This document shows positions 27,653-45,705 of a stretch of 64,000 bases of DNA, one piece after another (within the stretch, counting starts at the first letter, position 1; every line of letters begins with the position of its first letter). Made by a program: the position numbers and the translations under genes. The notes under the pieces are model-generated. The model did no database searches. It was not told the origin of the DNA and saw only the letters and a program-made list of their open reading frames with translations. The DNA is from Streptomyces hygroscopicus subsp. hygroscopicus (GTDB taxonomy: Bacteria > Actinomycetota > Actinomycetes > Streptomycetales > Streptomycetaceae), in the NCBI RefSeq assembly GCF_030269125.1, contig NZ_BSSM01000006.1:186001-250000 (forward strand), read 5' to 3'.

Positions 27653-28072
27653 TCAGGCCGACACGGACCGCGGGCTGCGCAGCTGGTCGGAACCGGGCAC
27701 CGGCTCGGACGCGTCGGCGCCGAGGGCCACGATCCGGTTGTCGGCGTCGACATGCACGACCCGCGGCTTCAGCTCACGCGCCTCGGTGTCGTCGACCTGC
27801 GCATAGCTGATGAGGATCACCAGGTCGCCGGGGTGCACGAGATGGGCGGCCGCTCCGTTGATCCCGATGACCCCCGAACCCCGCTCCCCCTCGATGACGT
27901 ACGTCTCAAGCCGGGCGCCGTTCGTGATGTCCACGATGTGCACGAGCTCCCCCGGCAGCAGATCCGCCGCGTCGAGCAGGTCGGCGTCGATCGTCACCGA
28001 TCCCACGTAGTGCAGGTCGGCCTGGGTGACGGTGGCACGGTGGATCTTGGACTTGAACATCGTACGAAGCAC
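27653..28072 (-). CDS. panD: Aspartate 1-decarboxylase
   Basis: A 139-residue proenzyme that makes beta-alanine for pantothenate and coenzyme A. It self-cleaves between Gly and Ser in '[12 protein letters not shown]' (about residues 24-25) to give a pyruvoyl group; catalytic Lys9 ('FKSKIH') and '[20 protein letters not shown]' are present. The start is GTG 28072, with CAGGAG six bases upstream. Codons 4-10 are part of a 21-bp direct repeat whose second copy, in a truncated panD start, lies 17.4 kb away, so this copy's first three codons and leader seem to have come with the inserted island. The gene looks intact. Confidence 0.95.
28043..28063. repeat. Left direct repeat (att-like core) inside panD
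   Basis: Twenty-one bases identical to 45468-45488. On the minus strand they are panD codons 4-10 (Thr-Met-Phe-Lys-Ser-Lys-Ile). Beyond the core the two leaders are diverged but still similar, for example GGCTCCCTGCCCGCT at 28091-28105 and 45517-45531. Confidence 0.85.
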
Positions 28073-28284
28073 TTTGGACTCCTGAAAGACGGCTCCCTGC
28101 CCGCTTTGTGCAGGTCAAGGGCGGTCTTCACTCTACACGGGCACGCGTCGAAGTCGACGATTGTGCGGAACATCGCTTCTCATTGGGGATAGGGCTCCCT
28201 GCCTGGGCTTCCGCGCCAACCAGGCTGTTGTGACGCCACCGACCAGGTGCCTGTTCGGACAGTCTTTTCAGGATGTTCGGGAAC

Positions 28285-28727: not shown

Positions 28728-31700
28728 TCAGACCTTGGCCTCAAGTACGCCCAGCGCCGTATGGAGGACCGGCTCCACGCGCAGGCGCGTCCCGTCCCGG
28801 TCGAACACCTGGAGGGCCTCCAGGCAGACGACGGCCCCGCGTGCCTCCTCGGAGGAGAGACCGGCCATCTCGGCCGCAGTGACGAGGTAGGCGTCGTCAT
28901 GCCAGTCGGTACCGAGCTGCTCGACGACCCCGTCGTAGGCGGCCTTTAGGGTGTCGTTCTCCAGCAGCCCCACGGCGTCGACGAACTGTTCGGCGCCGCT
29001 GCTCTGCTCCAGCCACGACGTCAGGTCCGCCAGCACCCGGTCCTGGTCCGGTCGGCGATCACGCAGCTGCAGCGCCTTGTCCAGTAGGTACGGCCAGCCA
29101 CCGGTCGCCTCCGCCAGGCGCGTCAGTCGTTCCTCCGTCTCGCACAGGCTGTGGCGCTGCGTCCAGTCCTTCAGGCTGCGCAGGTCATGCCGGCGCAGCA
29201 CCACGATGGTGTCGTGGTCGGCGTCGGGACCGGTGAGGAGGCCGGACCAGAAGCCGAGCTGTTCCACACCCGACACGAGGGCGACGGAGCGGGTCGCCTC
29301 GGCGGCCTCGGGCAGCACTGCCCTGGCCAGGTCGAAGGACTCCCGGCAGGACTTCTCGCTGCCCAGCGAGAGATCGCTGATAAGCAGTCGCCGCTCGCCC
29401 GCGCGGCCGGCTGCGAGCTCCTTGCGGAACGTCTTGGCGCTTCCGATCACGGGCACGGACCAGCCCGCCACCCTGCCCGTCACCTCACGCAGGGTCCGTT
29501 CCACATCGGCGACGCCGGTCGCCTGTGTACCGAGAACGACGCGGACTTGGTTGACGTATTCGCCCAGCAGATAGTCGATCTGGGTGACGGTGAGGGGGGC
29601 GGACCTGCCGTCGTAGAGGTCCGGACGGCTCTCCAGTACAACGGTCTCCTCCAGCCGGGACTCCGTCTCCGCCCGCAGCAACCGCGCCTCGATCTCCTGG
29701 GCGGTACCGATCATGCGCAGCGCGTTGGGCCCCCGCAGATGCCAGCCCTGCCCGTCGTTGTTCGGCGCCAGGACACCGAGGCCGACCATCTCCTGCAGAT
29801 AGGCACGGAAACCCTCGCTGTCCAGGTGCTCGAAGCCGCGGGGCCACCAGCCGGCACATTCCTCCCGCAACTCCCTGTCACTGAGCCGGGTTTCCAGACC
29901 GTTGTCCCGGGCGTGCTGGGCGAGGACATTGGCGATGACGTGGTAGCGGTCGTCGAGGGCGAGGGTGTCTTTGAAGGCCGCGGTGATGTCCGAGCGCAGC
30001 GATGTGTCCTGTTCCACCGCGTCGACGTCGGACTCCTCGATCGTGTACGGAGGCGGCGCGAGTGGTGCGTGCGCCCGCTTGTCCTGCATGACCTGCACCA
30101 TCCTGCTGCCGAAGATCTGCAGCAGGAAGGGCTGGTACGAGCAGAAGCCGAGCACCCGGTTGACGAGATCGACGTCGGCGAACTCGAAGCCGAGCGCACG
30201 CATCGGGTGCACGATCAGGTCAGCGGCGAACTGTGGGGCGAGCGGACCGACGACCGTCGGGGTCTGCGCCAGGTGGCTGAACGGGCCGTTTCTGGCGAGC
30301 CGGGTGAAGCGCTGCACCGAGTGCAGACCGGCGAACACGACCTTGGCCCGGCCGCGCGAGTCCTCACCCAGACCGCGCAGTCGGCGGGTCTCCGTGCACT
30401 CGGGGACGTCTGCCTCGAAGAAGCGGTCGCACTCGTCGAGGAGGATGAGCAGCCGCCGGTCGGGATCCTGAGCGAGCCACCGGGCGATCCCGTCGGTGAC
30501 CCGCTGCCATGATTCCTGTTGTAGGCCCCGGCGTCGGGGCTCCTCCAGGACTCCCTGCCTGATCAGCTCCTGGTCGAGCGTGGGCCAGATGGCCTCGGCA
30601 CCGAGTGCGGTGCCCCGGCCGATGCCAATCTTGTCCAGGTTGAGGTAGAGCTTGCGGTAGGCCCCCGGCCGCTGTTCCTCGAAGCGATCCCCCGCGTCGG
30701 CGAGCAGGGCCGACTTGCCGAGACCCCGGCCGCCGTAGAGGATCTGGGTCCCCGCGGGGTCGTGGATGCTCTTGCGCTCGCGGTCCCGTCCGTAGAACAT
30801 CTCCCGGCCGATCTGGCCCCGCTTCTCCTTGATGTACGGGTTCACCGCAGAGAACGGCAGCAGCGTCTCGGTCGTGGCATCCACCCGCCGGTTGCCGTGC
30901 GCGATGAGGTAGGCCAGCGCGGCGTCGTCCACCACCATGATCGGCTTGGTGTCCTGGGAGGCGGCGGCCAGCTCATTACGGGTTCTGCTGTCCAGCGTCC
31001 CGAAGTGGACGACGAGCAGACTGCTCTCGTCGGGGTCCTGCAGAGCGCGGGTGATGAGCAGTTTGGCCGCGGGCCGGCCCCAGATCAGCAGGGCGCGGAG
31101 CTTGCCGCCGCGGTCCTTGATCTGCGATCCGAAGGCGGGCGCCCAGGCACGGCCGGTGACGTGCACGGGCGCGAGTTCGAAGAACCGGTAGTCCTTGCCG
31201 CGCGGCAGATCGTCCAGAGGCCGTGCGCGCCGGGCTTCGTATCCGAGGAGGGCCAGAGCCGGATTCAGGCTCTCGCGCGGATTGATGTTGATACGGTCCT
31301 TCGTCGCGGCGAGCGTGCTCCACAACTCCAGGGCCGCGGCGGCCCGTTCGGCCTCCTCCTCCGAGAGTCCTGCATAGTCCAGCACGGCGTGGTCGCCGTA
31401 CCGGCCACGGGCGCGGACGGCCGCGATCAGCTCAGCGTCGATGCCGCCCGGCAGCGAGTCCGGCACGGCGGGGAAGAACGCCTCCAGGTGCGAGTCCTCG
31501 GACCTGATCTCCGGTACCGGTTCGCCCAGTTCGAGGAAGTAGACGAGTTCGGCCGCGGTGGCCAGGCTGTCGGTGTCCAGATTGCGCAGGACTCGTTCGC
31601 GGTCCTCCGCGCTCACGTCCGTCAGCGCGGCCAGCCGGGCGCGCAGCCGGTCGGCTGCTTCCTCGCGGTAGCGGGGCAGCAGCTCCTCGACTCGGTCGAG

Positions 31701-34700
31701 GTTTCGGCGGACCGCGGCCAGCTCGCCCGGCCGGTCGTGCTCCAGGTGTGCCCGGGCGTCCGCGAGCAGCTCCTGGAGGCTGACGTCCTGTTCGACGGTG
31801 AGTGCCTCGTCGGCTTGGGACCGGCGGAGCCGGGCGGCCAGCTGCCGCTGTTTTTCGGCGAGCGCCGCCCGGCGCTCCTTCTCGATCGCGCTGAGGTGTG
31901 CGCGACGCTCCTCCGAGAGCGACAAGGTGTGGGCTGCAGGAAGGACGTCGAGGTCCGCGAGGTCCGTGATGGTGCGAATCACGCCGAATTCGTCACGGGC
32001 GAGCTGCTGCTCGATTGCGTCGTCCCAGGTACGGTCCACTGCCTTCAGCAAGCCGTCCAAGGTCGGCTTCTCGCCCGGCACGGCCGGCTCGGCCTTGTGG
32101 AGCTCGGCGTCCAGAACCGTCTGAACGTCCGGCTCGGATCCCGTCTCGGCCGGTCGACTGTTCGCGTCCAGCCCGTCGAAGACCTCGGCGAACAGGTCCC
32201 GCGCCACGTAGGCGGTGGCTTTCGCCAGGACGGCGGAGCTGCGTTCGGCCGCGGTGAGGTCGTCGGCGACCCGTTCGCGTAGGCCGAGGAGGGAGAGGCG
32301 CAGGGCTGCGACGGACTGGAACGCCCACACGTTCTCCTCCGCGCGTCCTGCTTCCAGGTCGCGCTTGACCGCACGCCACTGCCGTACGGCGTCCCGGACG
32401 CGCTCGAGGCAGTGGCGAACGTTGTTGCGGCCCGACCCCTGGATGCCACGGCTGCCCGGCCCGCGCAGCGCAGCGTCCATCTCGTCGATCGCCGCCTCGA
32501 CCTGAGCTCGGCGAGCGAGGTTCTCCAGCAGCTCGTCGGCCAGGTGCTCGGCGTCCGGGGCCCCTGCCACGATGGCGGTCAGCACGCTGCCGAGCAGACC
32601 GGTCGGCGCCAGCCAGCGCTGCACCATGGCGCTGGCCCGTTGGAAACGCAACCGAGGTACGGTGAGCAGAGCCTGGCAGGCGTCCACGGCCGCGCGCAGC
32701 TCGCCCTCGGTGTGGGAGACATCGGCGACGACGGCATGGGGCGGCGCGATGAGCAGTGCGCCCTGCAGTGCGCGTTCTGCCACCATGGTGGCCACCTCGT
32801 GCAGGGCGTCGGGCAGTTGCGGGCTGATCGCCCTCAGCTGCGCACCGACCACGGGCGCACCCGTCACGAGGGCTGCGCGGACCAGCGTGGGCAGTAGGAG
32901 CAGGGACAGCGCGTCGCTGTCGCTCTCCTTACGGGCCTCCCACTCGTGCAGCGCCTCCTCGATGACCTGACCCGCTCGGCCGGACCTGGACTGCAGCAGT
33001 GTCGCCGCGGCGGCCAGGCGCAGGACCGCGGACTCGGTGTCCGGGCGGTCGGCGACCTGCGACAGGTGGGCGGCAAGCCCGAAGCGCTTCTCGGCGATGA
33101 GCCGGGCGAGGACGGGTTCGATGCCCTTCGTTCCCGTGCCGTCGGCGGTACCCGTGGGGGTGTCGACGGCCGCGGTCACCGCGAGGTCGGCGGTGACCCG
33201 CCGTTCCGGCGCGGGCTGCTGCTCGGCGGTGTCGGCGGACCGGGGAGGTCGCTCGGCCGGGACGGAATCGGCGGTGCTGTGGTTCTGCGTCTCAGGCACG
33301 CTGGTGTCAGCCTGCGCGGCGGTGGCCGCCTCCGGGGATATGGCCCGTTCCGGCGCCTCGGGAACCTCGGCGGATTCCTCGCCCTGCGGGGCGGCGGCCG
33401 TGTCGTGGGTGGTGGCCCTGTGCTCGGTCAGCGTGATCTGCTGGTACATGACGGCGGCCACGGCGTACGGCGGATGTGCTACCGACAACTGCTGTTGGAG
33501 CTCGATGATCTCCTGCTGTGCGTCGGACCGGTCCTTCATGCCGGCGAGGCGCACCAGCAGCGTGAGAATGTGTGCGCAGGTGTCGTCCTGTTCGTCCCAC
33601 TCCTGCTTCGCGAGCAGTGCCTCCGCGCGCTGCCTGGCGTCCGCGATCACCGCGGCCACCGCACTGCCTGGAGAGCAGCCGAGGGCCGTCACCGTCTCCA
33701 CCACGTGACGGGCCTCGGCGTTCCTCTCCTTCCGTTCGACGCGTGCACGAACCTCGTCGATCGCCCTCAGGACATCGGTGAGGCGATCGGTGACGCCGGT
33801 GACGCCGAGTGCGGAGAGCACGCCCCGCGCACGGGAGAACGCCGGGGCGACGGCGGCGAGCGGCACCAGATCTGTGCCGATTGGCGGCCACCCGTCCAGC
33901 AGTGCGGCGCGCACGCGGTCGGCCGCGCCTCGTGCCTCCTCGACGACGTGCTTGAGCTCCTCCTCGGCCGAGGCCAGTTCGTCCAGGGAGCCCCTCTCAC
34001 CAGGGGGCTGCTGCTCCTGCTGCGCGGAGGACTCGGGCAGTTCCGGAACCGGGATGTCATCGGGCCGCCGGCGAGCCGGGACGGTTGTGCTCCGCTGTGG
34101 TTGCTGAGCCGCCGCGTCGTCGTCCAGCGCGGCGCGGCGGACGAACCCGGGAGTCGCGTCGATCACCTGCTGAGCGGCCTTGAGTACCGTGGCCAGTGCC
34201 GCCTCGTCCGCCTCCATGCCGAACCAGTCGTGTGCCGCGGCCCATACGAGCAGTCGGGCGTGGTGCGCCGAAGCCCGGAGGTGGGAGAAGAGCGCCAGGC
34301 GGAGCAGGCACGCGCCCCAGCGGTCCACGAGACCGGGGCTGGTGCCGGCGGCCCCGTGCTCATAGACCGCCTGATCGATGTCGTTCATGATCCGGGCGGT
34401 GAGGTGGGACGCGGCATGCCTGTGGTGGGTCTGCTCAACCCGCTGCAACCGCTTGAGCACCTGCTCGCTGAGCACGCGCCCGAAGCGCCGCGGCTCGACC
34501 TTGCGGAAGCCGAGGCCCCTCATGATGGCCTGACGGTCCTTGGGCCCGAGGGAGTTCAGCGCGAGTTCCGTCTCGCCGACCGTGAGATCGTCGAGGGCAG
34601 CGTCCAGGACCCGGCCGAGCCCGTCGAGCGTTGCGGCGAGTTCCTTGAGCAGTCCAACCGGTGTGCCGTGCGGGGAGGACGGTGGTTTGGCAACCACGGG

Positions 34701-34715
34701 GTAGCTGGCGGTCAT
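28728..34715 (-). CDS. 1995-residue STAND/AAA-type ATPase protein, third gene of island operon
   Basis: A very large cytoplasmic protein. The first 1200 residues are helical and low in known motifs, with Glu/Ala/Arg-rich coiled-coil stretches (about 230-290 and 1000-1060) and a Pro/Ala/Glu-rich linker (about 430-540). An NTPase domain follows from about residue 1300: 'MFYGRDRE', Walker A 'YGGRGLGKSALL' (about 1325) and Walker B 'LLILLDECDRFF' (about 1425), then 'VVFAGLHSVQRF' as sensor 1. This order matches STAND/ORC-like ATPases. The C-terminal 400 residues include winged-helix-like segments. ATG 34715 follows the upstream gene by 89 bp and has a weak GGGA site, consistent with operon reading. 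Its role as sensor or effector is inferred. Confidence 0.75.
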   Translation of the reverse strand: MTASYPVVAKPPSSPHGTPVGLLKELAATLDGLGRVLDAALDDLTVGETELALNSLGPKDRQAIMRGLGFRKVEPRRFGRVLSEQVLKRLQRVEQTHHRHAASHLTARIMNDIDQAVYEHGAAGTSPGLVDRWGACLLRLALFSHLRASAHHARLLVWAAAHDWFGMEADEAALATVLKAAQQVIDATPGFVRRAALDDDAAAQQPQRSTTVPARRRPDDIPVPELPESSAQQEQQPPGERGSLDELASAEEELKHVVEEARGAADRVRAALLDGWPPIGTDLVPLAAVAPAFSRARGVLSALGVTGVTDRLTDVLRAIDEVRARVERKERNAEARHVVETVTALGCSPGSAVAAVIADARQRAEALLAKQEWDEQDDTCAHILTLLVRLAGMKDRSDAQQEIIELQQQLSVAHPPYAVAAVMYQQITLTEHRATTHDTAAAPQGEESAEVPEAPERAISPEAATAAQADTSVPETQNHSTADSVPAERPPRSADTAEQQPAPERRVTADLAVTAAVDTPTGTADGTGTKGIEPVLARLIAEKRFGLAAHLSQVADRPDTESAVLRLAAAATLLQSRSGRAGQVIEEALHEWEARKESDSDALSLLLLPTLVRAALVTGAPVVGAQLRAISPQLPDALHEVATMVAERALQGALLIAPPHAVVADVSHTEGELRAAVDACQALLTVPRLRFQRASAMVQRWLAPTGLLGSVLTAIVAGAPDAEHLADELLENLARRAQVEAAIDEMDAALRGPGSRGIQGSGRNNVRHCLERVRDAVRQWRAVKRDLEAGRAEENVWAFQSVAALRLSLLGLRERVADDLTAAERSSAVLAKATAYVARDLFAEVFDGLDANSRPAETGSEPDVQTVLDAELHKAEPAVPGEKPTLDGLLKAVDRTWDDAIEQQLARDEFGVIRTITDLADLDVLPAAHTLSLSEERRAHLSAIEKERRAALAEKQRQLAARLRRSQADEALTVEQDVSLQELLADARAHLEHDRPGELAAVRRNLDRVEELLPRYREEAADRLRARLAALTDVSAEDRERVLRNLDTDSLATAAELVYFLELGEPVPEIRSEDSHLEAFFPAVPDSLPGGIDAELIAAVRARGRYGDHAVLDYAGLSEEEAERAAAALELWSTLAATKDRININPRESLNPALALLGYEARRARPLDDLPRGKDYRFFELAPVHVTGRAWAPAFGSQIKDRGGKLRALLIWGRPAAKLLITRALQDPDESSLLVVHFGTLDSRTRNELAAASQDTKPIMVVDDAALAYLIAHGNRRVDATTETLLPFSAVNPYIKEKRGQIGREMFYGRDRERKSIHDPAGTQILYGGRGLGKSALLADAGDRFEEQRPGAYRKLYLNLDKIGIGRGTALGAEAIWPTLDQELIRQGVLEEPRRRGLQQESWQRVTDGIARWLAQDPDRRLLILLDECDRFFEADVPECTETRRLRGLGEDSRGRAKVVFAGLHSVQRFTRLARNGPFSHLAQTPTVVGPLAPQFAADLIVHPMRALGFEFADVDLVNRVLGFCSYQPFLLQIFGSRMVQVMQDKRAHAPLAPPPYTIEESDVDAVEQDTSLRSDITAAFKDTLALDDRYHVIANVLAQHARDNGLETRLSDRELREECAGWWPRGFEHLDSEGFRAYLQEMVGLGVLAPNNDGQGWHLRGPNALRMIGTAQEIEARLLRAETESRLEETVVLESRPDLYDGRSAPLTVTQIDYLLGEYVNQVRVVLGTQATGVADVERTLREVTGRVAGWSVPVIGSAKTFRKELAAGRAGERRLLISDLSLGSEKSCRESFDLARAVLPEAAEATRSVALVSGVEQLGFWSGLLTGPDADHDTIVVLRRHDLRSLKDWTQRHSLCETEERLTRLAEATGGWPYLLDKALQLRDRRPDQDRVLADLTSWLEQSSGAEQFVDAVGLLENDTLKAAYDGVVEQLGTDWHDDAYLVTAAEMAGLSSEEARGAVVCLEALQVFDRDGTRLRVEPVLHTALGVLEAKV

Positions 34716-34804
34716 TCAGTCCCGATCTCTTGTTTCCTGTGAATGTGGATGCGGGGGGTGTGGCGTGCGGCGCGCGCATGCACGGCCGGTGCTGTCGGGG
34801 CGGG

Positions 34805-37144
34805 TCAGCGCCGGCGGGAGTGTGCCGTGACGAAGGTGTAGCCGGGTGGTAGTTCCCAGCCGTCCGCCTTTCCGACGTGGCGGCAGTGCTCCCGGTAGGC
34901 AGCGCGCTGGGCATCCGTCGGATTCGAGCCCGCAGGAAGCTTCCGCAGAAAGCCGTGGACGAAGTGCTCCAAGCCGTGGACCTGCGGCGGCGCGCCGGCG
35001 CCCGAGCCCGGCCGTGGCACCACCACGGGGTTCGGCGCGTAACCGATCAGGGCGATGGGCGGCTCATCGTCGCGGGCAGGGTGGTGGGGCTCGCCGTCCG
35101 CACCGCGGCTGCCCGTGGCCGGGTACAGGTGGTGTTCGGCGAGGAGCTCGTCCACGGCCTGCTCCAGTGCGGTGACTTGGTGGGGGGCGGGAGTTGTGTC
35201 GTAGACGCCTCGAGGGAGCGCGGCCCGGTCGAGGAGGGCATGTCCGTCGGGCGTGAGGCGGCCGAAGCGTCGTACGGTACGCAGGACGAGACGCCGGGTG
35301 TCGAGGCCGGCGGACGAGTCACCGTCCCGGTCACTGCCCGGTGCTCCTTCCCGGGTGAGCACTGCGGGGTCGTAGCGGTGCGCGACGAGCTGCCCGTCGA
35401 TGTCGACGGGGTGTTCCAGTTCGACGGTGTGGACCCGGAAGACGGTGCCGCCGCGCGGCCACTGGATGTACAGGCACAGCCCGGGGAAGAAGTCGATGGG
35501 CCACTGGACGTTCCGGAGCATGCCGGTCTCTTCGGTGAGATCCAGAAGCACCTCCTGGACCTCCTCGGACGCGTCGAGCTCGCCGCCGGGATGGCTGAGT
35601 TCCAGGCGTACGCGTACGGAGACGGTATCCGTGCCGAGATATGCCAACCCGTCTTGGGCCCGGGGGCTCAACGGCAGTCGGTCCTCCATGAGGTGGGCGA
35701 GACGCAGCGGGGTCTGCCAGCAGACCTCGCTGTCGTTGATCCTCAGGTAGTTCAGCGGACCGATCCGGTCACCGTCCACGAGCGCGGTGTCCCCGGGTTC
35801 GGCATCGACGTACCGGCCGTCCTCCGGCTCTTCTTCTCGGGGGACGCTCTGTGCGTACGGCGCCGCGACAGGCCGGGGCGACGCGGGTGGATGCACCGTG
35901 TCATGCCAGCCGCGTCCCGCTGGGCGCAGCGGATCACTGTCGTCCGCCTCCTCCGAGCTCGGGTGGTGGGACCGCCAGATGCCACCGTTCTGGAAGTCGT
36001 CGTCGAGGGTGATCCGTATGTCGCTCCCAGCGCGCAGGCCGTTGTCCGTTTCTCCCCGGACGAAGTCCACGACCGCTAGGTTGGCGCGGCACACCGAGAC
36101 CGCGTATTCCACTCCGCTCACCAGTGGTTCGGCACCATCGACGCCGCGCAGCCACGGCCCGATCGCCGTGTACACGGTGCGGGAACCGTTCAGGCCGTGC
36201 CGTCGGCGAGTGGCAGGGGCCGCACTCCGTTCCAGGGAGCTGGCGAGGGCTCTCAGGTCGTCTCCGCCCAACGGCCCGTCGTGGCTCAGGGCGGCCCCGA
36301 TGCGGGTACGGGTCAATGCGTAGTAACCCCATCTGCGCAGGCTGTCGCTGGTTCGCAGGGCGTGATCGACGGTGTCCAGCAGCCCGCTGAGGGCCCTCTT
36401 CAGCCGTTCCTCCGCGCCACTCCCGGCCAGGTGGGCGACGGACACGGGAACGAGGGGGCTCAGCAGTGCTTCCCGCTGGTGGGTCAGCAGGTGCTGCACG
36501 AAGGCGGTGCAGTCGTCGAGCCCGGCCTGCGGCGCCGAGCCGTAGCGGGCGTCGACGACGACATGGCCGTCCTTGTTGAGCCACTTCTGGCGGGCCCGGA
36601 ACCGCTGCAACTTCACCTCGTCGAGCTGCAGCGCGGGGCCGAAGGCCGCGAGGTCAGGGACCAGCAGCTCCCGGCGCACTGGGTGCGGTGCCTCCGATAG
36701 CTCGCTCGGTCCTCGGGCACCGGCCGGTGCCCCGGACACCCACGCGGGTACGTCGACACCCTCTTCGACGCCGGGGTGTCGGCCCTCCTTGTAGACGATC
36801 TCCGCGTACAGCGGGTCGGATCCGGTTTCGATGCGCACGAGTGCCCCGACGGGCAGGGCCGGTACTTCGTCGCCCAGCGTCAGGGAGGGGAACGTGTCCA
36901 GGTCGAAGGGGCCGTTGCCGTGGCCTTCACCACCGAGTTCGTAACCGAAATAGGCCGCGTTGAAGGCGACTGCGGTGTGCACCGGACACACGCGGTCGGC
37001 CACGACCGCCTCCAGGTAGCGACGCAGTCGTTCCAGTTCATCGGCGGGTGTGCTGCGGTGTCCGCCTGTCATGGCGGGAGTGAGCACAGGCTCGCCGTCG
37101 AACGGCCGCCAGATGTCCGGTCCAGTGCTGATCATCGTGGTCAC
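34805..37144 (-). CDS. 779-residue protein of unknown family, second gene of island operon
   Basis: GTG 37144 overlaps the TGA of the helicase gene (GTGA), so the two are translationally coupled and probably made in fixed ratio. The frame extends far upstream inside the helicase gene but that part is a shadow. The protein starts 'MTTMISTGPDIWRPFDGEPV', has a long central part with mixed alpha/beta content, an acidic Glu/Asp-rich insert (about residues 395-450), and a basic C-terminus 'GYTFVTAHSRRR'. I see no Walker motif, helix-turn-helix, nuclease motif or membrane segment. I do not recognise the family. Position between two large NTPases suggests a structural or adaptor subunit. Confidence 0.72.
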   Translation of the reverse strand: MTTMISTGPDIWRPFDGEPVLTPAMTGGHRSTPADELERLRRYLEAVVADRVCPVHTAVAFNAAYFGYELGGEGHGNGPFDLDTFPSLTLGDEVPALPVGALVRIETGSDPLYAEIVYKEGRHPGVEEGVDVPAWVSGAPAGARGPSELSEAPHPVRRELLVPDLAAFGPALQLDEVKLQRFRARQKWLNKDGHVVVDARYGSAPQAGLDDCTAFVQHLLTHQREALLSPLVPVSVAHLAGSGAEERLKRALSGLLDTVDHALRTSDSLRRWGYYALTRTRIGAALSHDGPLGGDDLRALASSLERSAAPATRRRHGLNGSRTVYTAIGPWLRGVDGAEPLVSGVEYAVSVCRANLAVVDFVRGETDNGLRAGSDIRITLDDDFQNGGIWRSHHPSSEEADDSDPLRPAGRGWHDTVHPPASPRPVAAPYAQSVPREEEPEDGRYVDAEPGDTALVDGDRIGPLNYLRINDSEVCWQTPLRLAHLMEDRLPLSPRAQDGLAYLGTDTVSVRVRLELSHPGGELDASEEVQEVLLDLTEETGMLRNVQWPIDFFPGLCLYIQWPRGGTVFRVHTVELEHPVDIDGQLVAHRYDPAVLTREGAPGSDRDGDSSAGLDTRRLVLRTVRRFGRLTPDGHALLDRAALPRGVYDTTPAPHQVTALEQAVDELLAEHHLYPATGSRGADGEPHHPARDDEPPIALIGYAPNPVVVPRPGSGAGAPPQVHGLEHFVHGFLRKLPAGSNPTDAQRAAYREHCRHVGKADGWELPPGYTFVTAHSRRR

Positions 37145-40100
37145 GCCCAGCCGTCCTTCCGTTCGGATCCGCTTCCCGCCCGGCGGGATCCCGTGTGTCG
37201 GACCGGGCGGACGGCTCGCCAGAGGCTGTCCGGGCCCTCGACTGCGGCTCCGGCTGCGGCCAGCCGTGTGAGGCTCGCGCCTACTGCCGCATAGGGCAGA
37301 TCGGCTCGACCGCCGAAGTGGCGGCTTTCCCGGATCGCCTTCGGCAGGGGGATCATCTTTCGATTCCTCGGGTTGTACGAGGATTCGTCGCCGCGCAGTG
37401 CGTGCCAGAGCCGCCGCGGGTGTGCGCCCTGCGGCTGGAGCTGCAGCAGCCGGTGGACCTGGAGGTCGACGCGCTGTTCGCGCAGTGAGGTGTCGGCACT
37501 GCCTCCCTCGCGGGGGCGCGGGCTGTCGAAGGCCTGGGCAACCGCAGGGCGCCGCTCCTCCACGGGCCAGCGGCCGGTGTCCCAGCAGGCCGAGCAGCGG
37601 CAGCGGGCCGTGGTGCAGCACCCCTCGGGCAGATCGCTGACACCGAAGTAGTCGGCGAAGACCCGTTGGGCGCAGACCGTGCTCGCGTGGAAGAAGCTCC
37701 GGAGCCTGGTCAGTTCCTCGGCGGCTCGGCGGCCGCGTCGGACGAGCAGCGGGAGGAACCCGTCGGGCAGGGTGCCGGTGCGGGTGGTCAGACCGGTGAC
37801 CAGGCGGCGGCTGGGTGCCGCGGAGACGTCCAGGAGCCCACGGTCGTGGAGGTCGGCGAGCAGTTCCCAGGTCGCCGACGGTCCATCGGCGACCGAGCGG
37901 TAGTCGGGGCAACAGGCGGCGAGTTCCCGGTCGAGAGCTCGGACGTCGACCTGTCCTGGAGTGTCCCAGGACAGGGCGGTGTCGATGACGGTCTGCTCCA
38001 GCCGCACGGACCCGGCCGCTTCCTCGTCGCGCTCCGCTGCAGTGGTAGGCGTCTGTCCTGCGCCGTGGCCGGCCGGGCGGAGGTCGCCGGGCTTGACCGC
38101 GCAGAACGGCGGGTGGTCGCCGAGGTCCTCGACGGCGCCGAGGTCGGCGAGCGCGCTGAACGCCCGCATGATGCCGCCCTGGTAGCGCTCCTGGGTGTGC
38201 CGGTCGTCTAGCTCGGCCTCGCTCAGCGCACCGCTCGCGGCGTCCTCGGTCATGAGCAGGTCGGCCAGCCGTACCGGATCGAGCGTGCCGTCCCGCTGGG
38301 CGAGGACAAGGCTGCCCATGCGCCGGAGCAGCGACGGGGGCAGTTCCTGGCCCGTCATGAAACGAACCATGCGCAGACCCCGGCTCGTCGCGAGGGCCAG
38401 ACCGCTGTTGACGGGGCCGTCGTCGGCCGTCCCCCGCCCCGCGCCGTCCCGCCCCGCCCGACCCAACTGCTGGTAGAGCGCGGCCAGGTCGGTAGGCGGG
38501 GACACGCACATCACGGTGCGTACGTCGGGCCGGTTGACACCGAGCCCGAAGGCGGAGGTGGCCACCACCACGACCGGGACGAAGCCGTCGTCGCCTTCCC
38601 GAGGCGCCTCCCGGAACTCCGTCATGACGGCCGCCTTCTCCGCCTCCGTCAGACGGCCGTGGAACCGCAGCACGCGGACGCCGGCGTCACCCGCGTATTC
38701 GCGCAGGTGGGTGTAGAGGGTGTTGACCTCTTTGACGGTGAGGCAGTAGAGGATGGCGTGACCGTCGAGCGCATCGACGACGAGCTCGACCAGCCCCGCC
38801 ACACCTCCCTGTCCGAGCCGGTCGAGGGAGCGGCGGAAGACGGCGAGTTCGGGCCTGATCGGGTTCTCGCGCACCGTCAGGAGCCCGCCGACGACTCCGG
38901 GATGCTCTGCTTCGGCGGTCGCCTCGGCCGAAGCGGGCTCCGGGACCTCGGCGGGTAGACCGAACAGTCCTTCGCGCAGCGCCTCGTGGACGGCCTTGTT
39001 GGCGGTGGCGGTCACCGCGGTGACCGCCACCCCGTGGTCCCGGCGTAGCTCGTCCAGGAACCTGCTGACCCGGCGCATGCTGGGCCGGAAGTCCTCCCAT
39101 TGCGGGAGGGTATGGGCCTCGTCCACGGCGATCCGGGTCACCCGGCCCGCCGCCGCGGCCGCGCGGACGGTCTCCCGGAAGCGCCGCTGGCACAGGCGCT
39201 CCGGGCTGACGTAGACCAGGCGGATACCGTGGTCGGCCCGCCCGAGGAGCTGGTCCGTCACTTCCGTCTTACCCGCCCTGCTGCTGGACTCGCGCAGCGG
39301 GGAGATGAGCGCGCGGACCGCGCCACCGATGGACCGGTTCAGTTCAAGGGCCTGGTCGTGCATGAGAGCGACGAGCGGGCTGACGACCACGGTGACGCCG
39401 GGCAGGACCAACGCGGGCAGCTGGAAGGTGAAACTCTTGCCGAAGCCTGTGGGAAGCAGTCCGAGTACGTTGCGTCCCTCGGCCACCGCGGCGATGACGG
39501 CCTGCTGGGCCGGCTTGAGGGCCACGGGTTCGTCGACGAGCCGCAGCAATCCTCCGATGCGGGCGCAGCGGTCCTTGATCTCCTCCCCGAGCATGCCCTG
39601 TTTGCGCAACTTCCGAGTCTCCTCGGTGGTCAGCGCCAGTTCGCGGATGCGCCTGGTGTGCGGCAGGAGGGTCTGTCGTTCGAGAGCTTCGTCGGTACAC
39701 AGCTCCGCGGCCCGGACTGGATCCAGGAGGTTGTGGGCCGCCATAAACTGCCAGATGCGACGCCATCCTTCGGCCATGGTGGCGACGTTGCCGCCGCCGA
39801 TGTCGCCGGTTTCCGGGTCAGGGCGCTGAAGTCCGTCATCAAGGCTGCCGAGGAAGACACGCCGGTAGGAGCGGCGCAGGCTGCTTGCTCCCGCGAGTTT
39901 GCGGTCGCTGATGACGACGACGCCGCAATGACGGTCGGAGCGGATGAGCCGGCCCACCGCCTGACGCAGCTGGAGCGCGGCGAGCGGCAGGTAGTAGTGC
40001 TCGGTGGCGGCACCTTCCGGATCGGGGTGGCCGGCCTGCTCGGCTCGTGCGGCGACCGCCGCGCGCCGGGCCTCCACGATCGGAGCGGCGAACGGTGCGA

Positions 40101-43100
40101 AGGGCAGTTTGTTGATCCACACCAGACGCACCCGCTCGGCGTCGGAGACGTCGACCCCCTGCCAGAGTCCCTTCGTGCCGACGAGAAACCCTCCGCCGTC
40201 CCGCCGGTCGGTGAAGGCCTGATAGGCCCGGCCGTTGCCGAGAGTGAGCGCCTCAACGACTGGGGTGTCGAGGGCGCGGGTGCGCAGCTCCCGTACGAGG
40301 TGGAAGCCGATGCCCGCGGCGGTCGATCGGGCGGTCGTGAGGATCATGCCGCCGTCGTCGAAGCCGTTGCCGTCGGCGCGTATACGCGTCATTTCGGTGG
40401 CGAACCCGGCGACCTGGTGGGCGACGGTCCGCAAGGCGCCCTCCTCCTGCTCCGCCCAGGAGGGAAAGTCGGAGAAGCACACGACCTCGGCCTGGCTGCG
40501 CAGGGCGAACGGGGAAGGCAGGGCCAGCGTCGGCAGATCGTCGGGCAACCCGAGTCGGGTCCGCATGAAATCCCATTCTCCGGCGACACGCAGGGTCGCG
40601 GAGACGTAGTGGACACGGTCGAAGGACTCCAGGTAGCGCCGCCACTCCGGGTCTGCAGGTAGATCGACGGGACTGGTGGCGACACGGAACCGGTAGGACC
40701 GCAGCTCCGCCCTGGGTTCGTCCACTTCCTCCAGATGTATGACGCGGGAAGGGGGAGCCTCGTCCAGGGTGAGGGCAGGGTCGAGAAGGGCGCGGATGTC
40801 GGCCGTGATCCGGTCGAGGGCCGTGGTGAGGGAGTCGGTGTGCTCCGCGAGCCCGGTCAGGCGCTCGCGTACCAGGGGATCGATTCCGGCGGCGTGCTGG
40901 ACCACGTACCGCTCCAGCGTGATGCGACAGGACACGAGCGCCTTGGCGATGCTCTCCAGCACCAGCGACAGCCGCCGGGTGTGCCGGGTGCCGGAGGTGC
41001 CAGCGTAGGGGCTGGCGAGCGTGGTCGACCGGCTGCCGATGCGTACGCCCACGCCTTTGGCCTGGGCGTCGAAGGCCTGCGCCGCCAGCCGCGGAAGGCG
41101 TTCATCGTCAAGCAGCCGTTCGAGGTCGGCAATCGCTGCGGCGGCCTGCTCCTTAGCGGTGCTCGGGTGCGCGTCCGCGATCCATGCCTGGTACTCCGGC
41201 AGCAAAGCTTCCAGGTCCTGGTAGTCGGCGGTCACGGTCAGCGCGGATGTGGCGGCGTTCTCCAGCTCATGCGCCTCATCGATCACGAGGAGCACCTCGG
41301 GTCCGACGGCACGCAGGTCGTCCAGGTGGGAAAGGACGAGCGCGTGGTTGGCGAGGATGAGGCGGTGGCTGTCGATCGACTCCCGGACGGTGTCGGTATG
41401 CACCGTGAGGGGGTTGCCTGCGGCGGGGCCGTAGTCGCCGTCGCGCTGCGACAGCGACTCCAGCCAGAGCGGCAGGCCGCACCCGGTGTAGTCGGTGAAA
41501 AAGGCGGGCAGGTCCACCGGGTCGACCGATCTGGCCGTCCAAGACTGCGGGGGCTCCTTAGCCGCGAGCAGGCGCAGCGCGAGGAAGACGGCGAGTTCGC
41601 GGAACCGGCTCCGCTGGGAGAAGCGGGCGCGGGCGGTGCCCGCGGAGCGGCGCCGACGCGTGGCCTCGGCGAGGGTCTTCGTCAGGGCTGCGAGGGAGAG
41701 CCGGTTGGACTTGCCCTTGACCAGGTCGGCGACCCCGAGGATGCCCGGCAGGGCCCGCTCCAGGTCCTGGACGTCCTTCGCCATCTGGCTCTGCAACTGT
41801 TTGGTGTACGTGGCGATGACAGCGGTGCGGCTGTCGCCACCGGCGAGCCAGTCCAGCGCGGCGGCAAGTACCGCATAGCTCTTTCCGGTGCCAGTGGGCG
41901 CTTCCAGCAGGCCGCCGACGCCGCGGTCGGTCCAGTCGTGCAGCGTCGACGTCATCTCCTGCTGGGCGGCGCGAGGTTCAACGCGGGAGCCGTGCACGAC
42001 CCGTGCGAGAGCGGTCGGCTCGACCCGCCCGCCGGCGCCCCGTAAGACGTCCGGCACGTCCACGGTGCCCTTGCCCGGTGCCCTTCCCCCAGGGGTTCGA
42101 CGCGGCGTGTGCTGTCCAAACTCGGCACCCAACAGGCGGGCCACGTGCGCCTGCTCCCACACCTGCGGCTCTCGATCGTTGAATGCCTCACCCTCGGCCA
42201 GTTCCCGCAGCAGCCGCCAGGCGTCCGAGTCGGGGCAGACGTCGGCGATGAGATCGCGCAATTCGGCTGTCCTGCACGCGAACTCCGCGGCGGCCCGCTC
42301 CAGGAGGCGCACCAGCAGTAACGCGTCGCCGTCCGCAGTATGGGCACGGAGGTCCGAACGGGAGACATCGAGCTGAAGCGCGAGATCCTGAAGTCGGTGG
42401 GACGGGGCTGTCGGCCAAGCGGCGTGCGCGAGGTACAGGCCATCGACAGGGCGCACGGCGGAGAGCGGATCGCTGGTACCGGCCTCCTTCGCCGCTTCAC
42501 TGACGACGGGGAAGTCCAGTGTCGTGCCGTTGTAGGCGACCACGACATCAGCATCCGACAGGAAGTCGCTCAGCTCCGTCCACGCCTGCTGCGGGGATAG
42601 CCCCTGGCCGAGTACAGCGTCCCGGACGCTGCCGTCACGCAACTCCTCAGTGTCCCCAGGGAACCTGAGGTAACGCCGCCAGCGGGGGGCCGCAGCGACC
42701 CATTCCCGATCGGCGCCGAACCTGACCGCTGCCACCTCGTAGACGTGCCGCTCCAAGTAGGGAGCGGTCGCCGTGGTACGTACGACGCTCTCGACGTCGA
42801 GCGCGACGGTCCGCAGCACGGATGTCTCGTCCAACCGTGCAGCGATAGCGGATTCAGCGCCTGGCTTGCGTCGTTCAGGCGCCACCTGTGCCGGGGGCGC
42901 CGACTCCTGCAGAGCAGCAGGCAGGAGAATGTCCCCCGAAGCGATCAGCAAACCTCCACGGACCGCCTCGGCGACCAGCTTGACTAACCGCTGCTCCGGC
43001 AGTGTGCCGAACTGTCTCTTGGCCTCGACGACCAGTTCCCGCTCAGAAATTCCGGACGTAAAGGCGCGGACCAGCTCTGCAACCTTCCGCGACGCCGCAG

Positions 43101-43122
43101 AAACCGTCTGCCCTTCGGGCAT
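37141..43122 (-). CDS. DEDDh exonuclease - DinG/XPD-like helicase - RecQ-like helicase fusion
   Basis: A 1993-residue protein with three enzymatic modules. Residues about 105-275 are a DEDDh 3'-5' exonuclease: 'VALDVES' (Exo I), 'VVAYNGTTLDFPVV' (Exo II), 'HTADGDALLLVRLL' (Exo III). About 370-1100 is a superfamily-2 DinG/XPD-type helicase: 'LEAPTGTGKSYAVL', 'LLVIDEAHELEN', 'QAVGRLIRSDRH'. The Fe-S Cys position after 'LVKGKSN' is Ser/Leu and only one Cys lies between the Walker A and DEAH boxes. About 1205-1640 is a RecQ helicase: 'LLPTGFGKSFTFQLPA', 'VDEAHTLPQWEDF', 'QQLGRAGRDG'. A Cys-rich patch 'CCTTARCRCSACW' (about 1838) is the likely RecQ zinc site. ATG 43122 has AGGGGG at good spacing; GTG 43128 is too close. 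Confidence 0.88.
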   Translation of the reverse strand: MPEGQTVSAASRKVAELVRAFTSGISERELVVEAKRQFGTLPEQRLVKLVAEAVRGGLLIASGDILLPAALQESAPPAQVAPERRKPGAESAIAARLDETSVLRTVALDVESVVRTTATAPYLERHVYEVAAVRFGADREWVAAAPRWRRYLRFPGDTEELRDGSVRDAVLGQGLSPQQAWTELSDFLSDADVVVAYNGTTLDFPVVSEAAKEAGTSDPLSAVRPVDGLYLAHAAWPTAPSHRLQDLALQLDVSRSDLRAHTADGDALLLVRLLERAAAEFACRTAELRDLIADVCPDSDAWRLLRELAEGEAFNDREPQVWEQAHVARLLGAEFGQHTPRRTPGGRAPGKGTVDVPDVLRGAGGRVEPTALARVVHGSRVEPRAAQQEMTSTLHDWTDRGVGGLLEAPTGTGKSYAVLAAALDWLAGGDSRTAVIATYTKQLQSQMAKDVQDLERALPGILGVADLVKGKSNRLSLAALTKTLAEATRRRRSAGTARARFSQRSRFRELAVFLALRLLAAKEPPQSWTARSVDPVDLPAFFTDYTGCGLPLWLESLSQRDGDYGPAAGNPLTVHTDTVRESIDSHRLILANHALVLSHLDDLRAVGPEVLLVIDEAHELENAATSALTVTADYQDLEALLPEYQAWIADAHPSTAKEQAAAAIADLERLLDDERLPRLAAQAFDAQAKGVGVRIGSRSTTLASPYAGTSGTRHTRRLSLVLESIAKALVSCRITLERYVVQHAAGIDPLVRERLTGLAEHTDSLTTALDRITADIRALLDPALTLDEAPPSRVIHLEEVDEPRAELRSYRFRVATSPVDLPADPEWRRYLESFDRVHYVSATLRVAGEWDFMRTRLGLPDDLPTLALPSPFALRSQAEVVCFSDFPSWAEQEEGALRTVAHQVAGFATEMTRIRADGNGFDDGGMILTTARSTAAGIGFHLVRELRTRALDTPVVEALTLGNGRAYQAFTDRRDGGGFLVGTKGLWQGVDVSDAERVRLVWINKLPFAPFAAPIVEARRAAVAARAEQAGHPDPEGAATEHYYLPLAALQLRQAVGRLIRSDRHCGVVVISDRKLAGASSLRRSYRRVFLGSLDDGLQRPDPETGDIGGGNVATMAEGWRRIWQFMAAHNLLDPVRAAELCTDEALERQTLLPHTRRIRELALTTEETRKLRKQGMLGEEIKDRCARIGGLLRLVDEPVALKPAQQAVIAAVAEGRNVLGLLPTGFGKSFTFQLPALVLPGVTVVVSPLVALMHDQALELNRSIGGAVRALISPLRESSSRAGKTEVTDQLLGRADHGIRLVYVSPERLCQRRFRETVRAAAAAGRVTRIAVDEAHTLPQWEDFRPSMRRVSRFLDELRRDHGVAVTAVTATANKAVHEALREGLFGLPAEVPEPASAEATAEAEHPGVVGGLLTVRENPIRPELAVFRRSLDRLGQGGVAGLVELVVDALDGHAILYCLTVKEVNTLYTHLREYAGDAGVRVLRFHGRLTEAEKAAVMTEFREAPREGDDGFVPVVVVATSAFGLGVNRPDVRTVMCVSPPTDLAALYQQLGRAGRDGAGRGTADDGPVNSGLALATSRGLRMVRFMTGQELPPSLLRRMGSLVLAQRDGTLDPVRLADLLMTEDAASGALSEAELDDRHTQERYQGGIMRAFSALADLGAVEDLGDHPPFCAVKPGDLRPAGHGAGQTPTTAAERDEEAAGSVRLEQTVIDTALSWDTPGQVDVRALDRELAACCPDYRSVADGPSATWELLADLHDRGLLDVSAAPSRRLVTGLTTRTGTLPDGFLPLLVRRGRRAAEELTRLRSFFHASTVCAQRVFADYFGVSDLPEGCCTTARCRCSACWDTGRWPVEERRPAVAQAFDSPRPREGGSADTSLREQRVDLQVHRLLQLQPQGAHPRRLWHALRGDESSYNPRNRKMIPLPKAIRESRHFGGRADLPYAAVGASLTRLAAAGAAVEGPDSLWRAVRPVRHTGSRRAGSGSERKDGWA

Positions 43123-43211
43123 GCACACCCCCCTTGCACACAGCCCGGCCCATGCTCGACCGCGCCGCTCCCTCGGCTCTCCCTCCCCTGGAGACCCGGG
43201 ACGTGGCCTAC

Positions 43212-43217
43212 ATCATA
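43212..43217 (-). promoter_or_regulatory. Possible -10 box of the three-gene operon
   Basis: On the minus strand the sequence TATGAT occurs 90 bp upstream of the helicase start, in an AT-rich patch unusual for the surroundings. The -35 region (GTAACC at about 17 bp) is weak. Tentative. Confidence 0.3.
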
Positions 43218-43284
43218 GTTTCATTCGGAAGGTTACGGGCCTTCAGCGGAAATATTCGGGGGCGACTGACGGAAACGGACAGGC

Positions 43285-43686
43285 GTGACGGTGTTCAGCT
43301 TCCACGAGCCGAACTGGCGCACAAGGCGCACGTTGATGGAAGATTTGCGTGCTCGCCCATCGAGTACGCGGCCTCTTCCGCAGGGCTGGGCCCGAGAGGG
43401 CCGGACCGACACCGACAAGGCGCTGAGCGAGGCCGTGGCACCGGCACACCGGGTGCATTACCACAGCCGGACGATGTCGCTCCTGCTGGCAGACGTCTGC
43501 CGCCGGGACAGTACCAGCCCCGAGCCGATGCTGTCAGCACTGGTAGTCAATGGATAGAGCCGGAAGCCTTCAGACCGGTTCTTCGAACTGGCCGTTACCG
43601 AGTTCCACCGTCGAGACCCAGACTGGACCTGAGAGAGGGAGCGGGATGCAGTGTTTGACCGCTACCGCAGCCCGGTTTCGCCGTGA
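43285..43686 (+). pseudogene. Decayed gene of unknown family with two in-frame stop codons
   Basis: One plus-strand frame keeps protein-like sequence over 400 bp: from GTG 43285, through 'HYHSRTMSLLLADVCRRDS' and 'EPMLSALVVNG', stop TAG (43555-43557), then 'SRKPSDRFFELAVTEFHRRD', stop TGA (43630-43632), then 'ERERDAVFDRYRSPVSP' and the final TGA (43684-43686). The parts join in one frame with no shift, so two nonsense changes (the TGA probably from TGG Trp) seem to have killed it. Family not identified; the 'ALVVNG...DRFFELA...' pattern resembles small accessory proteins of mobile elements. Confidence 0.5.
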
Positions 43687-43709
43687 GTCCACTGCTGGGT
43701 ATCGCTCGG

Positions 43710-43833: not shown

Positions 43834-44493
43834 TCAGGCGTTCTCGTCATGGATCCGCGCACCCAGATCCTCCGCCCACTCCAGCGCCCACGCCTTGAGT
43901 TCTTCGATCTGCCGGGAGCTGAGCCCGTACGCGGTGTAGTCCTCATCCTCGTACCAGTCCGCGCCGATGAGCCGGTCCCGGAGGTCTTCGAGGCTGAACT
44001 CGTCGTGGGCGCGACGGCGGCCCAGGGATTCGAGGTCGGCGGTGGAGCGGTGGCGGGAGGCAGCCTGGACGTCGATGAGGTCGCGGACGGTGCCGCGGTC
44101 GGCGAGGGCGCGGACCTTGGTACCGATCACGTCATCGAGGGCAAGAACGGGGCCGTAGGGCGTCTGGGCAGGCGGAGCCCAGAACGCCTCCTTGAGGATG
44201 TCGACCTCGCACTCCTCGCCGGTGTCCGGATCGGTGACGAGGAACCGGCCGCTGAGCGGATCGGTCTGGACGTGCGTGGTCCGCCATCCACGCTCGCTGA
44301 GGCCTGCTGTGAGTGAGGCGACGATCTCCTGCATCGGAGCGGGGTTCTCGGTGGCGACATCGAGGTCACGGCTGAAGCGTTCGACCAGGCCGTGGGCCTG
44401 CACGGCGTATCCGCCGGTGAGGACCAGAGGGTAGGGGGAACCGAGGTCAAGGATGTCGGCGAGGAGACGCTCGTGGAGCGGAGTGAGCTTCAC
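43834..44493 (-). CDS. AbiEii-like nucleotidyltransferase (toxin-type)
   Basis: A 219-residue protein of the AbiEii/AbiGii nucleotidyltransferase group, in which the toxin member attaches nucleotides to tRNA or another target. The minimal NTase core is visible: 'LTGGYAVQAHG' (Gly27-Gly28), 'RFSRDLDVAT' with Asp43 and Asp45, and the third acidic residue in 'ECEVDILKEAF'. The C-terminal half is helical and acidic. GTG 44493 overlaps the stop of the preceding gene as GTGA, so both are co-translated, the usual layout of a two-gene toxin-antitoxin unit. Toxicity is inferred from family and layout. Confidence 0.78.
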   Translation of the reverse strand: MKLTPLHERLLADILDLGSPYPLVLTGGYAVQAHGLVERFSRDLDVATENPAPMQEIVASLTAGLSERGWRTTHVQTDPLSGRFLVTDPDTGEECEVDILKEAFWAPPAQTPYGPVLALDDVIGTKVRALADRGTVRDLIDVQAASRHRSTADLESLGRRRAHDEFSLEDLRDRLIGADWYEDEDYTAYGLSSRQIEELKAWALEWAEDLGARIHDENA

Positions 44494-44852
44494 GCGGCGG
44501 TCGTGTCGGCTGGAGCGGTGCAGGGCAGCTCGGGGAAGGCGTCCTCCCAGACCTCGCGGATGTAGGGACTGATCAAGCGCCGCAGCACGGGCCACTGCTC
44601 GGTGAGCAGCCGGTGGTGCAGGAGGGCCACCACGTCCTCACGGGGTCCTTCGGCGAGGACGGTCCGGTAGAGCGTCATGCGGGACTTCGGACGGTCCAGG
44701 CTGTAGCTCGTCCGCCCGGACCAGACGATGTGGAGCGGCAGGTCCACGTTGCCCTCGACGGGGCCGGCCAGCTCCTGCAAGCGCTCGGGCAGTCGGCTGC
44801 GGTAGCGGTCCCGCAGCACCTCCGCACGGGGGGCGGTGATCGTCGTGTCCAT
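44490..44852 (-). CDS. Small partner of the AbiEii-like gene (possible antitoxin)
   Basis: A 120-residue helical protein starting at ATG 44852 ('MDTTITAPRAEVLRDRYR'). It does not show the winged-helix DNA-binding domain of classical AbiEi antitoxins, so either it is a different antitoxin type or only a linked protein. Its stop overlaps the start of the nucleotidyltransferase gene by four bases. The end 'VWEDAFPELPCTAP' is acidic. Function inferred only from linkage. Confidence 0.62.
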   Translation of the reverse strand: MDTTITAPRAEVLRDRYRSRLPERLQELAGPVEGNVDLPLHIVWSGRTSYSLDRPKSRMTLYRTVLAEGPREDVVALLHHRLLTEQWPVLRRLISPYIREVWEDAFPELPCTAPADTTAA

Positions 44853-45419: not shown

Positions 45420-45464
45420 CCGAGCGGGGCCGTCACACCTCTGACCTGCAAAGACACGCAAACG

Positions 45465-45497
45465 CTAGATCTTGGACTTGAACATCGTGCGCAGCAT
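45465..45497 (-). pseudogene. panD: Truncated panD start (ten codons then TAG)
   Basis: Reads [10 protein letters not shown]-stop. The first ten residues equal those of the intact panD, but the third-codon bases of codons 2 and 3 and the start codon differ (ATG here, GTG there). The leader upstream is similar to that of the intact gene and includes CGGGAGT as ribosome site. This is most simply the original chromosomal panD start, cut off from its body by the island. Confidence 0.8.
45468..45488. repeat. Right direct repeat (att-like core) in the panD stump
   Basis: Twenty-one bases identical to 28043-28063, in the same orientation. The match ends at the stop codon of the stump on one side and at codon 4 on the other. 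Confidence 0.85.
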
Positions 45498-45705
45498 GTA
45501 GTACTCCCGGAGTGTTGGCTCCCTGCCCGCTCTTGCAGGTCAAGGGCGTTTCTCACTGTACATCGACAGGGTTTTTCGGCCTCGTACCGCCCAGTGCCGA
45601 GGACTGAAGCCGACCAATCGTCGACTTACCTGACGGCACGTCCGCCATGAGGTCGAAAGGACATCACCGCTGGAATGGTCACGTCAGTCGGGCGCCGGCG
45701 GCCCG

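Follow-up and report, generated by a model that had tools for sequence, protein, structure and literature searches.

Among the known bacterial proteins close to the one considered here are the ExoDinG proteins, such as DinG of Staphylococcus aureus and Bacillus subtilis, which carry a DEDDh exonuclease ahead of a DinG motor and have no RecQ part. A triple fusion of exonuclease, DinG, and RecQ was reported in 2005, as a feature found in Thermus thermophilus HB27 and nowhere else (Omelchenko et al., PMC1274311). No later description was found in the open-licence literature, though other reports may exist, and a 2025 review distributes DinG-like proteins among ten subgroups, none with RecQ, a name absent from the main text of that review (PMC11981726). 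The present work deals with such a fusion, hel, and its two operon partners, mid and aaa, in a window of 64,000 nucleotides from Streptomyces hygroscopicus subsp. hygroscopicus (assembly GCF_030269125.1, contig NZ_BSSM01000006.1, positions 186,001 to 250,000 of the forward strand; all coordinates below are those of the window). An earlier note on this DNA had taken the addition of RecQ to be apparently undescribed, a point overturned by the 2005 report of the same triple fusion (PMC1274311). The fusion itself is known but neglected; within the reach of these searches, the three-gene cassette of which it forms part has not been described.

Other machines share particular aspects with hel. RecBCD and AddAB join two motors and a nuclease on one duplex, like the logic proposed below for hel; their motors are of superfamily 1 (SF1) and their nuclease is of the RecB type, and no homology to hel is claimed. 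The RecQ-like defense helicases DpdF and PsyrT are not known to be two-motor chains, and they match the RecQ part of hel in PADLOC (212.8 and 167.4 bits). Membership of hel in DpdF was rejected on its NCBIfam score of 154.3 bits versus a cut-off of 550. The pPIWI-RE triad (PprPDDEXK-PprDinG-PprPIWI), proposed to be an anti-invader system, resembles hel in having a DinG-type helicase; this is its own PprDinG, and a word count showed no mention of RecQ in Burroughs et al. 2013 (PMC3702460). Membership in the triad was also rejected, as the operon in the window contains no PIWI or restriction endonuclease genes.

Architecture and relatives of the hel chain

The hel gene (37141..43122, minus strand) runs as a single open frame from an ATG at 43122 to a stop at 37141 and encodes 1993 residues, with a GTG 6 bases upstream of the ATG. 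Frame 1 of the plus strand contains nine stops across the same interval, and the GC content at third codon positions follows the hel frame to ~37.4 kb and thereafter that of the next gene. A frameshift near residue 1830 into an overlapping 1234-residue frame was ruled out, because the hel frame is preserved in homologues nearly as far as the stop codon and the following gene begins at 37135. The intact frame bears out the proposal of the earlier note, namely one 1993-residue chain with an exonuclease and two types of helicase.

Catalytic residues were then compared in an alignment of 16 hel chains, comprising that of the window and those of 15 of 16 Streptomyces/Kitasatospora loci, L011 being excluded because its frame seems to be broken at about residue 525. 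The predicted DEDDh exonuclease module (residues ~101-282; 42277..42822, minus strand) displays Exo I (D109/E111), Exo II (N198/D203), and Exo III (H261/D266), at the places near residues 110, 200, and 260 where the earlier note had seen them, and D109, E111, D203, H261, and D266 are identical in 16/16 chains. This part has no Pfam match, its assignment resting on the motifs, a match to PRK08074 DinG, and the collinear alignment with the Thermus protein. The DinG-type superfamily 2 (SF2) motor (residues 381-1096; 39835..41982, minus strand), recognized from hidden Markov model (HMM) matches and motifs, contains motifs I, II, and VI of a DinG-type helicase as EAPTGTGKS (407-415), DEAH (615-618), and QAVGRLIR (1054-1061). 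Counting of cysteines over the 16 chains detected no conserved four-cysteine (Fe-S) set in it, and certain ExoDinG proteins likewise lack the Fe-S cysteines (PMC11981726).

The RecQ-type SF2 motor (residues 1201-1561; 38440..39522, minus strand), assigned from HMM matches, structure relatives, and motifs, presents LPTGFGKS (1223-1230), DEAHTLPQWEDFRP (1334-1347), and QQLGRAGRD (1551-1559). Its aromatic-rich loop, DEAH-x3-QWEDFRP, is identical in all 16 chains, as are the Walker lysines K414 and K1229, the DE pair of each DEAH box, and the arginines of motif VI. Some 250 residues past this motor, a Cys-rich patch (C1817, C1835, C1836, C1841, C1843, and C1846; residues 1817-1846; 37585..37674, minus strand) resembles the zinc-binding element of RecQ and is putatively assigned to it from cysteine conservation, four of the cysteines occurring in 16/16 chains and C1835 and C1841 in 15/16, with no Pfam match. 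Both motif sets of the earlier note (PTGTGKS, DEAH, and QAVGRLIR for DinG; PTGFGKS, DEAH, and QQLGRAGRDG for RecQ), together with its Cys-rich C-terminal patch, are thereby located. As a separate observation, a single perfect palindrome with arms of 8 bases or longer was found in hel; it is 28 bp long and lies at 39004-39031 in the RecQ-coding part, and the same 28 bases match in L004 and L011.

Pfam matches of hel are DEAD (E=1.8e-29), Helicase_C_2 (2.6e-20), and Helicase_C (2.2e-16). NCBIfam matches to recQ (8.5e-58) and DnaQ/DinG (4.3e-48) both lie far under the curated cut-offs, with 196.2 versus 640.2 bits for the recQ equivalog and 179 versus 219.8 for the RecQ subfamily. With the RecQ family hel shares the motifs and the aromatic-rich loop, and WRN also pairs a 3′-5′ exonuclease with RecQ; the sub-cut-off scores and a DinG motor placed between exonuclease and RecQ set hel apart, and Pfam gave no RQC winged-helix or HRDC match at E<=0.01. 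Solved structures related to hel include RecQ, BLM, WRN, and DinG, among them 8zef, named 3′-5′ exonuclease DinG.

Six peptide patterns, searched in one genome per species, located the whole chain at 16 Streptomyces/Kitasatospora loci, with best-segment identities of 63-95%. Further whole chains occur in G006, G045, and G109, in G803 of another actinobacterial family, and in G177 of another class. The same order is found in Deinococcota plasmid proteins of Thermus HB27 (1649 residues), Meiothermus (1662), and Deinococcus (1759), and profile alignment of hel is collinear with those of Thermus HB27 (E=2.3e-64 over 1244 columns) and Deinococcus (E=1e-60). The earlier note had named what would speak against the fusion, a frameshift or assembly join at residues 1100-1200 revealed by separate homologues; this was looked for and not found, 16/16 loci encoding the whole chain. 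The explanation that an artefact joined DinG and RecQ genes is therefore refuted, since whole-chain relatives occur at the 16 loci and in Deinococcota, and nothing was found in its favor.

The Thermus protein, TT_RS10770 (WP_011174436.1) of the megaplasmid pTT27, is presumably that of the 2005 report (PMC1274311). It agrees with hel in module order, and differs in its length and in a cysteine set seen by eye in its DinG part, not conserved in hel. Its downstream genes also differ from mid and aaa, two looking coiled-coil by eye and one encoding 514 residues. More generally, the Thermus and Meiothermus fusions are followed by three uncharacterized proteins (~260-280, 180, and 510 residues) and that of Deinococcus by one of 886 residues (L078 10596-13494; L079 9660-12491; L080 9562-12222). 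The 514- and 886-residue proteins, the two compared with mid, do not match it. Different partners appear to surround the same engine.

Searching plasmids with hel gave no match at 1e-30, a threshold that was too strict, because Thermus appeared at 1e-5; at this value tblastn retrieved 20 Thermus records among 210 matching, none of which reached 80% of the query at a single site. Two peptide patterns run on viral_contigs returned 36 stretches and 0 confirmed relatives of the whole chain, phages contained no relative of hel at E<=1e-30, and the Deinococcus chain matched 75 phage records at 1e-5, none over 80% of the query. A phage origin of hel was rejected, no whole-chain relative being found in either collection. 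In a midpoint-rooted RecQ tree of 22 rows (without L003, which has no RecQ-core match), the Deinococcota fusions group with stand-alone RecQs; constraining all fused chains together was not rejected (p-AU 0.34) in a test of 17 rows, made without L003, L005, L013, L014, L031, and L085 and with L086 unused. The sequence data would thus fit one origin of the fusion or two.

The partner genes mid and aaa

The mid gene (34805..37135, minus strand; 776 residues) starts 5 nt past the hel stop, and aaa (28728..34715, minus strand; 1995 residues) follows 89 nt after mid. The three genes keep the same order and orientation in 15/16 loci, the contig of L018 ending past mid. The full cassette is also present in G803, where the hel and mid frames overlap by 4 nt, as they do in G177.

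In a comparison aimed at DpdG/DpdH-type partners of the Dpd system, no PADLOC or NCBIfam match at E<=10 was obtained for either mid or aaa. For aaa, a STAND/AAA-like P-loop NTPase core is suggested by a sub-threshold match to AAA_22 of Pfam (E=4.6e-05, 24.2 bits versus a cut-off of 27) and by conserved Walker A (residues 1328-1336; 30708..30734, minus strand) and Walker B motifs, with GGRGLGKSALL and LLDECD-FF conserved in the 11 aligned rows; L015 was dropped from this alignment for an internal stop, and L004, L007, L013, and L016 were not included. Matches of aaa in the Protein Data Bank were at chance level, mostly to designed proteins.

For mid, no match was found in Pfam at 0.01 or by sequence in the Protein Data Bank at E<=1. 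A first AlphaFold2 model had a pLDDT of 45.9, and that built with a 26-row alignment reached a mean pLDDT of 79.6 and a pTM of 0.55. Structure comparison of this model points to a B3/EcoRII-N-like domain at residues ~465-590 (35366..35743, minus strand) and a winged-helix-like domain at ~609-703 (35027..35311, minus strand), both as fold inferences. Residues 465-590 best match 1yel (Z 8.6, rmsd 3.0, 96 aligned); their matches, at Z 4.3-8.6, comprise several B3 domains and the DNA-reading domains of EcoRII (3hqf; Z 7.4, rmsd 3.4, 108 aligned), LlaJI.R1 (6c5d; Z 6.6), BfiI (2c1l; Z 5.8), and UbaLAI (5o63; Z 4.3). Matches of residues 609-703 are winged helices, a fold that often, not always, binds DNA, and the list also includes methyltransferase and cullin domains. 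The predicted fold of mid therefore resembles the DNA-reading domains of the restriction enzymes EcoRII, LlaJI, and BfiI, and DNA reading is a lead rather than a result, because the Z scores are modest and Foldseek returned nothing under E 0.001 (best 0.35). The C-terminal part of mid, comprising both domains, recurs elsewhere (L033 6758-10341, L065 9381-10256, and L042 7610-10018), in L033 after a gene for a UvrD-type helicase and in L042 within an otherwise different protein, so that this module may be common to several helicases.

Distribution, mobility, and neighborhood of the cassette

Matches to mid were found in 14/150 Streptomyces genomes, that of the window included; G025 has the C-terminal part only, which leaves whole mid in 13/150. 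In samples that overlap with this one, mid was detected in 4/396 genomes of the phylum (the own genome, G177, a fragment in G510, and the C-terminal part in G346) and in 6/394 of the class (the own genome, G803, the G510 fragment, the C-terminal part in G346 and G1001, and weakly in G106); in the class of G177 it was found in 1/199. The G510 fragments (C2:368385-369318, within L043) belong to mid and to the C-terminus of aaa, do not share one frame, and are probably a decayed cassette.

Among the 13 Streptomyces genomes with whole mid, 5 (the own included) carry hel and 8 lack it anywhere at E<=1e-50. The latter are those of L029, L030, L034, and L048-L052, where mid-aaa stands without hel, in L049 and L052 beside AbiEii-like genes as judged by eye. 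On a mid tree of 26 rows, the helicase-less rows need two changes, and the deepest rows are L041, L032, and L028/L031. Presence of hel is likely the older state, as read from a midpoint-rooted tree with L041 and L032 on long branches.

L004 matches the window over 28037-43381 (94.9% identity) and 43552-45110 (93.0%), and outside this block (28037-45110) it matches window 26501-48500 only at the repeats, short matches of 28 and 102 bp excepted. For L011 the shared parts are 27656-45122 and 46122-47425. Within the part common to both lies a gene for an AbiEii-type nucleotidyltransferase (43834..44595, minus strand; PF08843, E=3.7e-16). The 17-kb block is flanked by imperfect direct repeats of 102 bp (28037..28137 and 45462..45562; 82/102 identical, 80%), the repeated sequence being the 5′-terminal part of a panD-like gene (27653-28072, minus strand), to which the left copy belongs, and L004 has similar copies at both block ends. 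The repeat-bounded block looks like an insertion site and is mobile-looking; no integrase was seen by eye among its predicted genes.

Neighbors were collected as 65 genes predicted by a codon-bias rule at the 16 loci, within at most 6.5 kb on the upstream side and 0.3-1.7 kb on the downstream side, and over shorter distances at contig ends. Among the best 25 of 63 Pfam families they include pPIWI_RE (3), GmrSD (2), AbiEii (2), N6 methylase (2), Schlafen-group-3 helicase (2), and BrxC/D (1), with BREX and type I methylase genes thereby represented, next to such ordinary genes as catalase, Usp, and decarboxylase; for PADLOC the best 25 of 124 families were considered. The two AbiEii neighbors are almost certainly those of L004 and L011, which are not independent of the window because both loci carry its block. 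Genes of pPIWI_RE adjoin the operon in L012, L013, and L015. In L013 a complete triad (884-9795) lies upstream on the same strand and ends ~70-200 bp from hel, by the start chosen, and in G034, taken to be L012, PprDinG-PprPIWI lies downstream in convergent orientation. Stand-alone pPIWI-RE has been mentioned for Streptomyces (Burroughs et al. 2013, PMC3702460).

As control, 63 genes were taken from 12 stretches of six Streptomyces genomes, at the mirrored telomere distance of the cassettes or 100 kb from it. None of the six defense families of the neighbors appeared among the best 25 of 92 Pfam families of the control.

Proposed anti-invader role, DNA repair, and other explanations

The patchy distribution of the cassette and its frequent location among virus-defense genes make it probable that it belongs to a bacterial immune system, and an anti-invader role is the reading that we favor with some confidence. 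The more specific proposal, which stands at even chances, is that hel supplies the motors and the nuclease of an undescribed system of Actinomycetota that has three genes and is directed against phages or plasmids. This proposal is supported by the intact sites in 16/16 chains, the operon order, the patchiness, the AbiE-bearing block, the defense neighbors, and the mid fold.

A particular division of labor among the two motors, the exonuclease, mid, and aaa can be sketched tentatively, with somewhat less than even confidence. In it, mid would use its B3/EcoRII-N-like and winged-helix domains to read the duplex and would recruit hel. The DinG-type motor (5′-3′) and the RecQ-type motor (3′-5′), RecQ proteins being known to move 3′-5′, would pull opposite strands of one duplex and so advance along it in a common direction; the DEDDh domain would digest 3′ ends. 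Two SF2 motors would thus do what RecBCD and AddAB do with SF1 motors, while aaa, as a STAND/AAA-like ATPase, would serve as sensor, switch, or scaffold gating the machine. Two-direction unwinding with end trimming by hel is a fair inference from family polarities, and S. aureus DinG (SaDinG) is a 5′-3′ helicase with 3′-5′ exonuclease activity (PMC12345164). A bolder version appears rather doubtful, namely a new class of immunity in which an SF2 helicase-exonuclease with both polarities in one chain, a RecBCD-like machine made of DinG and RecQ, is loaded by a B3/EcoRII-N-like reader and controlled by a giant STAND-like ATPase; reader, destroyer, and switch would there be separable modules because some lineages shed hel or lack aaa.

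Several observations weigh against an anti-invader system of three genes. Defense neighbors are company, not function, and the control is not free of similar signals: its PADLOC matches, 60 families each in one gene, are in the best 25 mainly SNF2-type (DpdE, ZorD, DrmD), aminotransferase-type, and PD-T4-6, and weak single matches (e.g., AbiEii) could sit below the best 25 families. The fold matches of mid are modest. The aaa gene is split over two frames in L004, L007, and L013 and has an internal stop in L015 by tblastn, so that some copies may be damaged or misread, through sequencing error or decay. In G177, hel and mid are present and aaa was not found at E<=1e-5. Moreover, hel is not indispensable to the mid-aaa pair, as 8/13 Streptomyces genomes with whole mid lack it, and the ExoDinG proteins studied so far act in the repair of crosslinks or replication stress (PMC12345164; PMC12525004).

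This last point leads to DNA repair, the main rival, in which an accessory ExoDinG gained RecQ and acts on crosslinks, R-loops, G-quadruplexes, or stalled forks, its partners targeting damage. Resistance to mitomycin C and formaldehyde depends on SaDinG (PMC12345164), the structure relatives of hel include the repair helicases RecQ, BLM, WRN, and DinG, and the pTT27 recQ of Thermus HB27, presumably the hel relative, is counted among DNA repair genes (PMC13140390). The same source, on the contrary, describes pTT27 recQ as "Highly Permissive" to insertion and part of the shell genome, and the patchy occurrence (whole mid in 13/150), the AbiE-bearing block at different sites, the absence of hel from 8 of 13 genomes, and the defense neighbors argue in the same direction, so that we regard repair as unlikely. 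Alternatively, mid and aaa may constitute the immune unit, a STAND-like sensor with a DNA reader, to which hel is an add-on that processes or amplifies the DNA trigger. Agreement with this comes from the pair occurring without hel in more Streptomyces genomes than with it (8 versus 5) and from the helicase-less rows taking two changes on the mid tree. Nevertheless, hel-mid-aaa is broader and probably older, judging from the deep L041, L032, and L028/L031 (two of them long branches, under a midpoint root), and G177 retains hel-mid without aaa; we hold this arrangement to be unlikely, slightly more so than repair.

In any case, the fusion that in 2005 seemed confined to a single strain of Thermus is a conserved architecture in two phyla, accompanied in Actinomycetota by two large uncharacterized partners, neither of which is named by the libraries used. 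If the anti-invader reading holds and the cassette is a defense system, hel would offer a tractable single-chain model of two SF2 motors of opposite polarity with a nuclease, and mid would connect the DNA-reading folds of restriction enzymes with helicase-based immunity.

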